64,000 nt of DNA, taken from contig NC_088927.1 in assembly GCF_038396675.1 (NCBI RefSeq), forward strand, positions 25,001-89,000, given 5' to 3'. Positions 29,995 through 44,546 of this stretch are shown one piece after another; position 1 is the stretch's first letter; each line of letters starts with the position of its first letter. Below the pieces are notes generated by a model. That model worked only from the letters and a program-made list of their open reading frames with translations. It was not told the origin of the DNA and ran no database searches. The DNA is from Hydra vulgaris. Taxonomy: Eukaryota > Cnidaria > Hydrozoa > Anthoathecata > Hydridae. The position numbers and the translations under genes were made by a program.

Positions 29995-30003
29995 TTTTGG
30001 AAT
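29995..30003. repeat. Left 9-bp target-site duplication of the MULE
   Basis: TTTTGGAAT sits directly outside the left terminal inverted repeat and is repeated exactly at 44538-44546. Nine bp is the standard Mutator-superfamily duplication length. Confidence 0.95.
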
Positions 30004-30048
30004 GGTTAGCAGACGTTAACATAACTCCAAATTAGGTCGATTTTTTCG
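30004..30048 (+). repeat. Left terminal inverted repeat of the MULE
   Basis: 45 bp, reverse complement of 44493-44537 with one mismatch (position 37, G versus A). Begins GGTTAGCAGACG and ends TTTTTTCG. It is the likely transposase binding site. Confidence 0.95.
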
Positions 30049-31228
30049 GCGGCCGTTAAGTTATTTATTCGAGTTAATTCAAAACAGCGAATAAGGAAAC
30101 GTGATATTACGAGGAAACGTGATATTAAATCCAAGGATTATTAAAGCAAACAAAAACAAAGATAATGGATTTATCTATATATGGTGAAAATTTGAATCTC
30201 AGCAGTTCTGATGAAATAAGCTCTGATGATGAAAGCGTAAATATAAAAGGTAACGTAATATATAAACATTTTCAGTTTAATAAATGCAGAACTTAATACA
30301 TTTATTTTATTTATAACAATGTTGTTAACAAAATAAATGTAATAAATAATTGTATAATTATTAATATATTTTTTAATTTAGAAGTCTATGAACAAAATTT
30401 GAGTATCATTGAAAATGATTATTTACCTACACATAATATTGTTTATGGTATATTTTTAGTCACTGTTACCGTACAAAAACTGCTAGTAGAAAAATCAAAT
30501 ATGTCAATTTAAATTTCTAGCAGTTAACTGCTATATTGTATATTGACAGATTTGATTTTTTAACTAGTTAACTGCTAGAAAAACTAACTTAAAACTAGTT
30601 TTAAACTTCAGATAATAATTTTAAATCACAAACAATTGATTTAGTGTGCCTTTTTTTGTAAGAAATATTCAAAATAGTTGTTTTAGTCTATTTTCATATT
30701 CACTGAGAGTATGCTGATCAATTTGACTTTTAATTTTTATAGAAGGAAAAAAAAATTAATTTATTATTGTAATTCGCATGAAGAAGCATTAAGCTGTGTG
30801 AAAAAATATGAGTTGGCTACTACAACAAGATTTGTTGTCTATAGTGTAACCAAGGACTTTGGATTAACAGGTAAACTATAGTTTATAGTGACCTAGTTTT
30901 AAAACAAATCATTTTGCATTACACAAATATTTGCAATCTAAAAGCAGTGATTTTGTGACATGTTTTTTTGACTAACATAAAGTTTCTTGGCTTAAATATG
31001 AAAATAGTTTATTTAAATGCAAGATTAACTTTGTATCATAACTAAAAATATTAAAAATGATAACCATTTTCATTTTGTCATAATTTGTTTTTAATTTATT
31101 AAGTGTTTCCAAAAACCCTAAGGGTTCATTACGTTTTGAGTGGTTTTAATGAAATAAATTGCGTTGAATGAATATATGTCAAATTCAGCATTTTATATAT
31201 TATATATCTATAATGCTGAATAAAATGC

Positions 31229-31390
31229 TTTATTATTATTATTATTATTATTATTATTATTATTATTATTATTATTATTATTATTATTATTATTATTATT
31301 GCATATATATGTATGTATATATATATATATATATATATATATATATATATATATATATATATATATATATATATATATATATATATATAT
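31229..31390. repeat. (TTA)n then (AT)n microsatellites in intron 3 of the MULE gene
   Basis: About 24 TTA/ATT units (31229-31301) pass through a short GCATATATATGTATG junction into about 40 AT dinucleotides. Confidence 0.96.
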
Positions 31391-34315
31391 GTAATGTTTT
31401 GTTTTTTTAAGGTTGCGATAATATACTGTGTTTAATTTGTTTGTGTTGCTTTAAAATAATTTTTTAATAAATTAATTAGTCACACTCCAAAAACCATAAA
31501 TATTTTTTTATAGAAATGATCACAAAAAATCACAATGTTCTATGGGAAGATTATGCCATTCAGTATTCAGGCATACCCCATATGGTTGTTGCTCACAAAA
31601 TTTTAGATTGTCACCATGGTTTTGATAGAAATATTTCAGCGAAAAACAGTTATAGAAAAAATAAAAAAAATGCCAAGGTAATATTATCACATTTATCATA
31701 CTCAATTAAAAACATTTGTTCTTGTTTCTCTAAAAAAACAAGATTAAAAGTTTTTAATTGAGTATGGATGAAAAAAACATTACCACTACTTTAAAACAAA
31801 TAAACATAACATTTCAAAGGTGGTGCCTAATCCTTTTTTTTACAATTTTTAGTAAATTCTAGGAAATAAAAATCAACTTTTATCATTTGTTTCTTTTAGA
31901 TAGATGATCACAGCTTTCAAAAAAGTTATGTGATTCTGCAAGATACAAAGAAGTTTATGTGTCCTGCAAAGATAGTTATGAGAAAAATATTACAATTTCC
32001 TGATTTCAAGGTTTGAGTAACTAAATTATAGGTAACATGCCTGTTATAATTTTATAATGTATGGTGTTATGACCTAAAGAAGCCCTGAATTAAATTTAAA
32101 TGTCCCCAAAGGTTAGTGGAAAGATATATCTTTCTAAAAATGCACCTTTGTTGAATTAGAATTAAGGTTTTAGGTGTCTCACCCGACTTCTTTGGCTAAA
32201 ACCCTCTATAAACCCAGTTTTGTCCTTATTGTTTTTGTATCTGGTTTTATTTTTTTAATTTAGATACCTAAGCATTCAGCTTGGCACAAAAATAAAGCTT
32301 CAAAACTATTGAAAGAAAAATTAAAAGTCTCATGTTTAAATGAAGTACCTTATATTCGGACAATTGTTGTAGCTATTGATGATTTATCGTGTCATGATAA
32401 ACACCCTATTGGAAAAGTAAGAATAAAATTGTTTTATATAATTTGTACTTGCAAAAAAGTTAAAAACAGTCCTGCGGTTTGTTTACTAATTTACCATATT
32501 AAATATTATTTTAAATCAGGTAGAACTAATTTCTCAAATAATCGATCCTCATATTTCAAAAAAGATTGAAGAATATGTTATAGAAGGAATATACAACATA
32601 AGGGAAATAAAGCACCTCCTTCGTTTGACAATAAAAGATACTTTTGGAAATGAAAATCTTCCTCCTTCAAATAGCAGAAGATTCTATCCCAACACTGCAA
32701 CCATAAGATCACATATAGTAAAAATTAAAAATAAGTTACGGTAAATCACAAATGTTGATTATTTCTTAGAATAAATTTTACATATGAAATGATTTGCTTT
32801 ACTAGTTTAGATGTTTACTTGATTCATGTTCAAAGTAATCTTAAAAACTTTTATTTTATTAATGTTGTTGTTTCCTTTTATAAAGGTATTCCATGATTGA
32901 CCAAGAATGCCTTTTGATAAAATGTGAAGAATGGAAAAAATGTGATCCATCTGTCAAAGTGTTTCTTAGACCAAACTGTAGTGGCGAAGATGGTGGTGAT
33001 AAATGTTCGTTTTTATTTGTTTATCAGTCACAGTGGCAACAACACCTTCTCATGCGCTATGGAACTGAGATACTGCTACTTGATGCCACATACAGGACTA
33101 CCAGATATTCTCTTCCTCTGTTCTTTTTAACTGTAAAAACTAATTTTGACTACCAAATAGTAGCCAGTTTTGTCATTGAAAGTGAAACAAAACAAGCCAT
33201 CACAGAAGCGCTTAACACAATAAAAGATTGGAACCCATCTTTTCAACCTTCCTTTTGCATGACTGACTATTGTACTGAAGAAATGGATTCATTAGAAGCT
33301 GTTTTTCCAGGTATAAATAAAGTTTATAATAATTTTCATTTGTTAGTGAATATTATGGCAGTTTAAATATACATTTGAAAGCAAATTAAATTGGTATACA
33401 TTAAAATAATGTAAAGCATTTAATAGAATATTTTGAATTGTTTTTTGTTGTCTTTTTTAAGTTCACTAGAAACTCTTTTTTTTTCATTGTGTAACTCATC
33501 TGAATTTGGTTTTTCTTTAACTTATTTTAAAATATAGAGAATTATTTTTAGGTTGCCGTGTTCTTATATGTGATTTCCATAGAGAGCAAGCATAGCATCG
33601 CTGGATTGCCAAAAAAACAAACAACTGCTCAGAATTTAAAGATCCAATAATTTCAATGCTACGAAATATTGCATGGGCACAAAATGAAAAGATGGCAGAT
33701 GCAGCTATAGTTAAGTTAAAATGTTCCAACTTTTGGTTAGACAACAAATTTCATAAATTTAAGAAATATATTACTAATTATTGGTTACAAATTAAAGAAG
33801 TGAGTATATTTAACATTATAATTATTACCTCAAATTTAACATTACTTAACATTTTTTGCTATACATAACCCAAGGATTGCAAATTTAAAGCATTAATTTA
33901 TGGTTAAAACAATTTTAATTTATACTCGTGTCAATGTAAATCTGCAAAAGTGTTATTATTTTTTTCTAGAAGTGGATATGGGGGTATCGTCAGGATCGAT
34001 TTTTTAATAAACCTTAATACCAACAATGGAATTGAAAGGCAACATGAATCTTTTAAGTATTCGTATCTCCAAAGACATAAAAACTCATCAATTACTGGAA
34101 TGCTTACTCTTTTAATAGAAGAGTTTTTTGCAGATAAATTTGAGAAGTAAGTATATTAAAAAGTTTTATTGTAGCTTGATTAAAAGCAGTTTATTACATT
34201 TAATAGTTCTTTTGTAAATTATTCCAAATACTTACTACCTAAATTTTTCTTTCATAAATTTGGCTTCATTTTTAAAATAGTATATTTTTCTATTATTGAA
34301 GAAATTATGAAGTGA

Positions 34316-34420
34316 TATATATATATATATATATATATATATATATATATATATATATATATATATATATATAAATATATATATATTTATATATATTTTT
34401 ATATTTTTATATATATATAT
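34316..34420. repeat. (AT)n microsatellite in intron 10 of the MULE gene
   Basis: AT dinucleotides with some TTTATA interruptions, just before the exon 11 acceptor region. Confidence 0.93.
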
Positions 34421-43719: not shown

Positions 43720-44340
43720 AATTTATGCAGTCATTGAGTTTGGTGATTGCAAGAAATATTTAGGGATTATTATTGATTACCAACCTATCTTTACTGAACA
43801 TATAAAACATATCTCCAATAAAATTGCAAGTAAAACTGGATGTCTTGGTAGAATAAGCAAATATTTAACTCAATGGACTAAAAAGATAATCTTTCTAACT
43901 ATAATTGCTCCCCACTATGAATATTGTGCTTCTATTTTTCTTGATAAAAACAATAATAACTAAAACATCTTAAAAAAACTACAAAACTAAGCAATGAGAA
44001 TCATATTAAAATGTGACTGGCCAACTCACAAAACAGAAATGTTAAAATTGCTTGGTTGAATCAGTGAAAAAAATTAAATAATTTTTAAATCACTATGTTC
44101 AATTCACAATGTTACATCAACTTAAAATGATATTTTTAAACAGTTCTATTTAAAAGATTGTGAGTTACATCAACATAACACTAGACAAGCTAGTTATTTT
44201 CATAGTAGTAGCCAAAGTAATAGAGCAGGGCAGAAGTTATCGTTTGTGTGTGGTTCGAAACTATACCATGAAACAGCTTGTAGATTTGTTCAACTGGACT
44301 TTTTTTAAAAATTCAAAAAACTACTCCAAACATTAAACAT
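43706..44340 (+). pseudogene. LINE reverse transcriptase C-terminal fragment
   Basis: Reads GDCKKYLGIIIDYQPIFTEHIKHI..., then HYEYCASIFLD, then LKKLQN-stop-AMRIILKCD in frame. This is the order of the RT thumb (KYLGI-x-ID) and the C-terminal LQ-x-x-A-M/C-R-x-I-L motif of CR1/Jockey-type LINEs. It differs from the other LINEs in the window. No FADD domain is present, so it is 5'-truncated. Confidence 0.7.
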
Positions 44341-44359
44341 TATTTCAAAGAAAATAAAT

Positions 44360-44402
44360 TATATATATATATATATATATATATATATATATATATATAT
44401 AT
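44360..44402. repeat. (AT)n microsatellite
   Basis: Short AT tract about 90 bp inside the right MULE terminus. Confidence 0.93.
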
Positions 44403-44492
44403 CGAGTCGAGCCACCTTCGTTTAACTTAATGACGAGCCAAACTGTATAATAGAAACTTGTTAATACGGCAAAATAAAAAATATACGGTAAG

Positions 44493-44537
44493 CGAAAAAA
44501 TTGACCTAATTTGGAGTTATGTTAACGTCTGCTAACC
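44493..44537 (-). repeat. Right terminal inverted repeat of the MULE
   Basis: Reverse complement of 30004-30048 with one mismatch. Its outer end (GCTAACC) abuts the right target duplication at 44538. Confidence 0.95.
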
Positions 44538-44546
44538 TTTTGGAAT
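44538..44546. repeat. Right 9-bp target-site duplication of the MULE
   Basis: TTTTGGAAT, identical to 29995-30003. Confidence 0.95.

Follow-up and report, generated by a model that had tools for sequence, protein, structure and literature searches.

The question raised by this locus is whether two 45-bp inverted repeats, lying 14.5 kb apart in a 64-kb stretch of a Hydra-like genome (the whole stretch is called the window below), are the ends of a single transposable element, and what kind of protein is encoded between them. The most probable answer (probability about 0.88) is that the repeats delimit a full-length, recently inserted and now coding-defective Mutator-superfamily element (Mutator-like element, MULE) of 14,534 bp, measured from outer end to outer end. 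The predicted domain order of its transposase is ALS2CR8, a DDE domain of the MULE/ZSWIM1-3 type, a SWIM motif, an Ulp1-like C48 protease and a PHD finger. Membership in the Mutator superfamily is firm; the clade of the element within the MULEs is not settled.

Ends and target-site duplication

The boundaries of the element are marked by four features:

29995..30003, no strand: left target-site duplication, 9 bp, TTTTGGAAT (from the sequence)
30004..30048, + strand: left terminal inverted repeat, 45 bp (also matched elsewhere in the genome)
44493..44537, − strand: right terminal inverted repeat (inverted match to the left end)
44538..44546, no strand: right target-site duplication, 9 bp, TTTTGGAAT (from the sequence)

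Compared with the reverse complement of 44493-44537, the arm at 30004-30048 is identical at 44 of 45 bases. The longest exact stretch between the two is 35 bases, and similarity drops off sharply past base 45; in simulations of the window (20 copies, first-order Markov), 14 exact inverted 20-mers arose in total. Even with as many as 16 of the 45 bases allowed to differ, the window contained no further copy of the 45-bp end. The 9-mer TTTTGGAAT occurs three times on the + strand of the window, the third time at 3716, and a pair of 9-mers drawn at random from the window is identical with a frequency of 1.2e-4. A further control makes use of the family of copies described below: the flanks of 40 family ends were compared pairwise, each oriented as in a target duplication. 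Among these 780 pairs, matches at all nine positions were confined to ends of the same copy, at three loci. Since no other flank pair exceeds 7/9, these three perfect duplications are not due to chance. The base-exact 45-bp repeats and the perfect 9-bp duplication reported in an earlier reading of this DNA (the first-pass annotation) are thus borne out, as is its assignment to the Mutator superfamily, for which the MULE DDE domain, the terminal repeats and the 9-bp duplication all speak.

Copies of the element in the genome

The genome searched comprises 911.5 Mb in 15 contigs, with the window on contig 8. For the left 301 bp of the element at least 44 matches were counted, the window copy among them (40 of 47 candidates scored), and terminal inverted repeats are common to the window copy and its relatives. 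Both ends are readable in 11 copies, counting that in the window. Three of these are flanked by perfect 9-bp duplications, namely the window copy, C5 (GTGCAAAAT, different from that of the window copy) and C10 (TATTATAAA on both sides). C10 is an internally deleted 2.2-kb derivative, and its identity of 78-90% points to an older copy.

The sister copy C5, on contig 5, is collinear with the window element over 14.65 kb. The two differ at 69 of 14,489 aligned sites (0.48%) and by 14 indels; substitutions number 9 in 3,492 exon sites against 60 in 10,997 sites elsewhere (Fisher p 0.033). A collinear sister with a duplication of its own implies that the 14.5-kb unit moved whole, and recently. That C5 arose instead by segmental duplication is opposed by its different flanks and duplication.

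The first-pass annotation had proposed a search for the terminal repeat in the source genome. This returned further copies, including one full-length collinear sister, and it ties the repeat to the same gene: seven of the eight long copies (C5, C7, C8b, C13, C15, C1 and C14, not C3) carry coding-exon DNA from exon 3 onward, so that the copies of the repeat are not unrelated to the gene.

The right half of the element

To the right of the gene, three remnants of long interspersed nuclear elements (LINEs) are recognised:

38754..39525, − strand: LINE remnant, about 91% identity with the LINE at 20.4-23.5 kb (sequence comparison)
41455..42207, + strand: LINE remnant, about 80% (sequence comparison)
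42286..42588, − strand: LINE remnant, about 69% (present in C5, C7, C15, C1 and C14)

Six to seven kilobases of this half had initially been taken for foreign insertion. That estimate is not supported: only 1,828 of 7,015 bp are recognised LINE remnant, which sister copies have at the corresponding position, and for the other 5.2 kb the origin was not recognised. The view that the whole 7 kb is foreign DNA added to the window copy after it landed would draw on these remnants, and on a possible reverse-transcriptase piece near 43.7-44.0 kb (seen by eye, no Pfam match). However, C5 holds the same stretches in the same order throughout, and C7 matches 37297-38590, 38748-39934, 39971-42740 and 42743-44537. 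Foreign insertion is thereby contradicted for the window copy, where it is very improbable; at most it could apply to ancestral elements. An insertion private to the window copy is therefore rejected. Because it occupies the same place in sister copies, the right half travels with the element.

The remnant at 38754-39525 is in place in C5, C7, C8b and, from 39197, C3, and has no collinear match in C13, C15, C1 or C14. That at 41455-42207 is whole in C5, C7, C1 and C14 and partial in C13 (to 41961) and C15; the C3 match ends at 41507, and the C8b sequence stops short of the region. From these distributions, the remnant at 41455-42207 is read as having entered an early ancestor and that at 38754-39525 the ancestor of a sub-family; the LINE pieces would have inserted into ancestors of the element and been carried along since.

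No second gene was recognised in the right half, where three of 15 open reading frames of at least 60 amino acids were scanned without a Pfam match. Near the 3′ end there is only a TA run (44360-44402). The LINE of the window itself, at 20471-23473, consists of two long open frames, separated by a single stop, with an endonuclease and a reverse transcriptase; its 3′ remnants are found inside the MULE.

The transposase gene and its domains

The gene was read as about 12 exons (E1-E12), listed here with the lesions of the window copy and a repeat in the last intron:

30165-30249, + strand: E1, tentative exon, start codon guessed (reading of frames and splice sites)
30382-30447, + strand: E2, tentative exon (reading of frames and splice sites)
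30743-30870, + strand: E3 (GT-AG introns, phase by hand)
31514-31677, + strand: E4, ALS2CR8/CARF domain (PF15299)
31900-32010, + strand: E5, ALS2CR8/CARF domain (PF15299 on joined exons)
32264-32416, + strand: E6, ALS2CR8/CARF domain (PF15299 on joined exons)
32520-32740, + strand: E7, ALS2CR8/CARF domain (PF15299)
32886-33310, + strand: E8, MULE / ZSWIM1-3 RNaseH-like DDE domain (PF21056, PF10551)
33552-33799, + strand: E9, DDE domain (exon reading)
33593..33595, + strand: in-frame stop in E9 (no stop in C5)
33970-34146, + strand: E10, DDE domain (exon reading)
within 33970..34146, + strand: frame break in E10 (C5 reads E10 in one frame)
34453..36039, + strand: E11, SWIM motif, linker, Ulp1-like C48 protease, first part of the PHD finger
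35639..35641, + strand: in-frame stop in the protease part of E11 (no stop in C5)
36975..37113, + strand: minisatellite in the last intron, 42-bp unit, about 2.6-2.9 copies (repeat scan)
37348..37477, + strand: E12, last exon, remainder of the PHD finger, stop codon 37475-37477 (PF00628)

All 11 proposed introns have GT-AG borders, the exons having been picked with splice sites in mind. By hand, the phase is consistent from E3 to E12 over nine introns, given the frame break in E10, and the GC content is 0.308 in exons against 0.215 in introns. An intron-bearing MULE gene inside the element, as claimed in the first-pass annotation, is supported by the DDE domain together with the GT-AG introns. 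Its account of the gene stands for the MULE core; it overlooked that the coding region is broken, and also the ALS2CR8, Ulp1-like and PHD domains.

On the joined exons, ALS2CR8 (PF15299) is matched over nearly the whole model with an expectation value of 8.1e-33; on single unbroken exons the values are 2.2e-10 (E7) and 3.9e-7 (E4), and E6 alone gave no match. The frame of E8 matches both PF21056 (ZSWIM1-3 RNaseH-like, 1.2e-13) and PF10551 (MULE, 3.2e-11, 44 bits against a cut-off of 27.6). Putative catalytic residues are the aspartates at LLDAT (33076) and MTDYC (33259) and the glutamate at NGIERQ (34025). A SWIM motif of the form CxC..CxH follows, with CSC at 34694 and CKH at 34730. A 218-amino-acid piece that runs across one stop matches the C48 protease at 22.0 bits, above the cut-off of 20.7 (expectation value 1.6e-4), and the part behind the stop scores 19.4 bits; its motif residues are H 35606, D 35660, Q 35765 and C 35786, presumably those of the C48 active site. 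The first part of the PHD finger is in E11 (35984) and the remainder in E12. Its match to PF00628 (3.9e-5) lies at the cut-off, and PHD fingers in the PDB match from 2.1e-4.

Comparison of the ALS2CR8 part and the DDE-SWIM part with the PDB gave no matches. Nor were there any in the viral collection, searched with exon 11, the DDE exon and the initial 25 bp of the end, or in prokaryote genomes, searched with the DDE exon; NCBIfam returned nothing useful for three pieces.

The coding region of the window copy is broken by two in-frame stops and one frame break. None of the three occurs in C5, where a separate lesion affects E6. The window copy would thus need transposase supplied by another copy. 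A 42-base indel between the two copies falls inside the minisatellite.

Observations against a complete, gene-bearing MULE

Several observations weigh against the reading of this locus as a full-length MULE with the gene described above. Eight of the 11 two-ended copies lack a 9-bp duplication (C7, C13, C15, C1, C14, C4 and the short copies C13s and C2s). Recombination or a larger duplication is likely in C1, because a second right end, on contig 5, has the same outer flank as the right end of C1 over at least 43 bp; in the remaining seven the missing duplications are unexplained. No intact copy of the family was found among the copies read. In the window copy, the tentative exons E1 and E2 do not continue in phase into E3. 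The SWIM match of the window gene, with an expectation value of 0.021, is below the Pfam cut-off, and C48 is not listed for the whole spliced read at Pfam expectation values up to 1, where only RickCE_cat (0.041) appears. Single-sequence folds are poor, with pLDDT (predicted local distance difference test) values of 37 for the protease piece and 39 for the DDE piece. Finally, ratios of non-synonymous to synonymous change (dN/dS) against sister copies lie at 0.38-1.54 in 12 of 16 computable comparisons. The four low values are 0.12 and 0.24 (against C5, on two to three changes), 0.21 (DDE of C8b) and 0.19 (a diverged DDE in the C14 locus). This spread is as expected from a mixture of constraint and decay, and alone does not prove selection on the family.

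The two right ends with identical flanks lie at 54885886 on contig 1 and at 16499592 on contig 5; this family end seems to have been duplicated together with its surroundings.

Copies without matching duplications suggest that mixed ends may occur in the family, and the two 45-bp arms could then be the ends of separate insertions that happen to lie on either side of a MULE gene, with no movement of the 14.5-kb unit as one. The perfect duplication of the window copy, and the collinear C5 sister with a different perfect duplication elsewhere, make this very improbable, and two unrelated ends are rejected. An ordinary host gene bracketed by chance is also rejected.

ALS2CR8 across the genome

ALS2CR8 (PF15299) has at least 151 matches genome-wide (642 candidates, 150 scored), and the best 30 loci were examined; no matches were found in 14 control genomes, presumably microbes and hence a weak control. 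At 28 of these best 30 loci a related DDE domain (tblastn with the DDE of the window, expectation value ≤1e-5) follows at a distance of 6 to 512 bp downstream in the same orientation. ALS2CR8 is therefore a transposase domain in this animal; going by these best loci, matches to it in such genomes mostly mark transposons, and a gene named CARF-like there would need checking. Locus L049 has a weak trace of DDE only (1e-3 to 7e-3). Clustered at 75% identity over 400 bp with single linkage, the 28 DDE-linked loci and L049 form four DNA clusters, and the last locus, L045, stands alone.

ALS2CR8 and DDE share one open frame in L066 (425 amino acids, with most of ALS2CR8) and in L061 and L074 (235 and 233 amino acids, with its last third). 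Downstream of L066, a 589-amino-acid open frame contains SWIM (0.02) and C48 (20.2 bits) matches, the first below and the second just under its cut-off; the protease part shares 36% identity with that of the window, and the tail of the frame matches the PHD part of the window by tblastn (3e-8), with no PHD listed by Pfam. In L024, a diverged relative in the C14 locus, PF21056 and SWIM exceed their cut-offs while PF10551 and C48 (17.9 bits) are below theirs; the PHD exon is matched at 75% on the DNA level. ALS2CR8-like stretches are found there by tblastn (4e-7 and 4e-5), and Pfam gave no ALS2CR8 in the one open reading frame scanned. SWIM is below cut-off in the relatives L076 and L077. Since diverged relatives (the L066 region and L024) have like domains, the domain plan has been kept over great divergence.

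Taken together, L066:1408-2682 and L076:3-1769 cover about 18275668-18279468 on contig 10, where neither of the two open frames (425 and 589 amino acids) contains a stop.

Proposed mechanism

The mechanism starts from what was observed, namely the ends, the duplication, movement as a whole unit and the domain plan; from these, we infer end binding, cutting and joining, and the roles of the PHD finger and the Ulp1-like protease. Recognition of the inverted ends would fall to ALS2CR8, at the N-terminus of the transposase, the domain by which CARF binds DNA. The DDE core, of the RNase-H type, would excise the element and rejoin it with a 9-bp stagger, and the SWIM finger would aid contact with DNA or protein. 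At the target, histone tails may be recognised through the PHD finger. Possible substrates of the Ulp1-like protease are conjugates of SUMO or ubiquitin, or else proteins of host silencing. A MULE with both a protease and a chromatin-reader finger would have two activities that could be directed at host silencing.

End binding by ALS2CR8 is a prediction, and the SWIM or PHD finger could contact DNA or chromatin instead, leaving ALS2CR8 to another step such as dimerisation or regulation. This is somewhat unlikely, given that ALS2CR8 is N-terminal and directly ahead of the DDE domain, like the FLYWCH fingers in Muta; N-terminal FLYWCH fingers are predicted in 13 Muta families (PMC5225508). A base-exact transposon with a recent sister insertion opens this MULE group to tests of its ends and its transposase, including the end recognition by ALS2CR8 proposed here.

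Origin of the CARF domain

CARF (ALS2CR8), a neuronal, calcium-responsive transcription factor defined by this domain, and ZSWIM1/3 are host genes. The window element has an ALS2CR8 domain, as CARF genes do, but inside terminal repeats and a target duplication and ahead of a DDE domain; the domain of a vertebrate regulator is thus tied to a transposase. This suggests that CARF-type regulators may be transposon-derived. In a fuller version, to which we would give even odds, ALS2CR8 originally served to bind DNA at the head of a MULE transposase of animals with the plan ALS2CR8-DDE-SWIM-Ulp1-PHD; CARF and, through the shared RNase-H family, ZSWIM1/3 would be domesticated parts of this single transposon lineage, and invertebrate CARF-like genes mostly transposases.

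Descent could also have run the other way, with a transposon ancestor capturing ALS2CR8 from a host CARF gene. The locus L045, which looks like a candidate host CARF-type gene without a transposase, would fit such a capture: it has the best Pfam score, and no DDE domain was found within about 5.0 kb downstream. Yet several diverged families have ALS2CR8 joined to DDE at an unchanging position, a fusion that looks ancestral to the transposase, and 29 of the 30 loci fall into four DNA clusters, besides the family of the window. Capture is accordingly unlikely, though the inference about CARF and the direction of descent are not settled.

L045 itself, the best ALS2CR8 match in the genome (contig 3, 53432003-53432431), has long open frames (L045:600-2190) and, by eye, a further stretch like the FAR1-like head of MULE transposases.

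A limited literature search, which did not cover other names such as CaRF, found no paper joining ALS2CR8 and transposase; newness of the link between CARF and MULEs is not established.

Comparison with known systems

With the Mutator superfamily the window element has in common the MULE DDE domain, terminal inverted repeats and a 9-bp duplication, duplications in the superfamily being of 8-10 bp and mostly of 9 bp. Many members have a SWIM finger, for which the window gene has the CxC..CxH motif with a score below the Pfam cut-off. The window element adds the ALS2CR8, Ulp1-like and PHD domains. CARF and ZSWIM1/3 belong to the same Pfam families (PF15299 and PF21056), whereas in the window element both domains occur in one transposase.

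Proteases are found in other MULEs. Plant MULEs (Kaonashi) carry an Ulp1-like C48-type protease gene. The difference is that in the window element the protease is fused behind SWIM and is followed by the PHD finger. MuDR-6_HM, from a cnidarian host, is described with a protease gene of the ovarian tumour type (presumably a deubiquitinase), a family other than that of the window protease. No ends are given for MuDR-6_HM in the table of the 2019 MULE survey (PMC6446971).

Another group described in that survey is Rehavkus. Its transposase has a PHD finger, and its elements have 9-bp duplications, ends of 26-400 bp and a minisatellite; the hosts are insects and annelids (PMC6446971). By this description, the PHD finger, 9-bp duplication and minisatellite recur in the window element. 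In Rehavkus, however, the minisatellite precedes the 3′ inverted repeat, while here it is some 7.4 kb away from the 3′ end, within the last intron. Phantom / Muta elements have animal hosts, 8-10 bp duplications and SWIM or FLYWCH fingers; unlike the window element, their row in the survey table names no ALS2CR8, Ulp1 or PHD (PMC6446971). The Ghost cnidarian sub-group has cnidarian hosts and ends of 177 bp, against 45 bp here (PMC6446971).

The terms ALS2CR8, Ulp1, C48 and peptidase do not occur in the main text of the survey (PMC6446971). The window element is thus a member of a known superfamily with ALS2CR8 and Ulp1-like domains absent from that main text. A limited literature search for Mutator superfamily, Hydra and SWIM together found no paper.

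Other elements in the window

Further fragments were seen by eye. Helitron-like fragments lie at 55481-56588 (− strand) and Penelope-like reverse-transcriptase fragments at 58795-60031 (− strand), both with no supported Pfam match; for a Tc1/mariner-like transposase fragment at 61075-61659, Pfam gave nothing reliable. An inverted repeat at 52000-52286, with exact arms of 46 bp lying 195 bp apart, is a possible small miniature inverted-repeat transposable element. Further hairpins in the window are found at 679-751 and 15713-15776.

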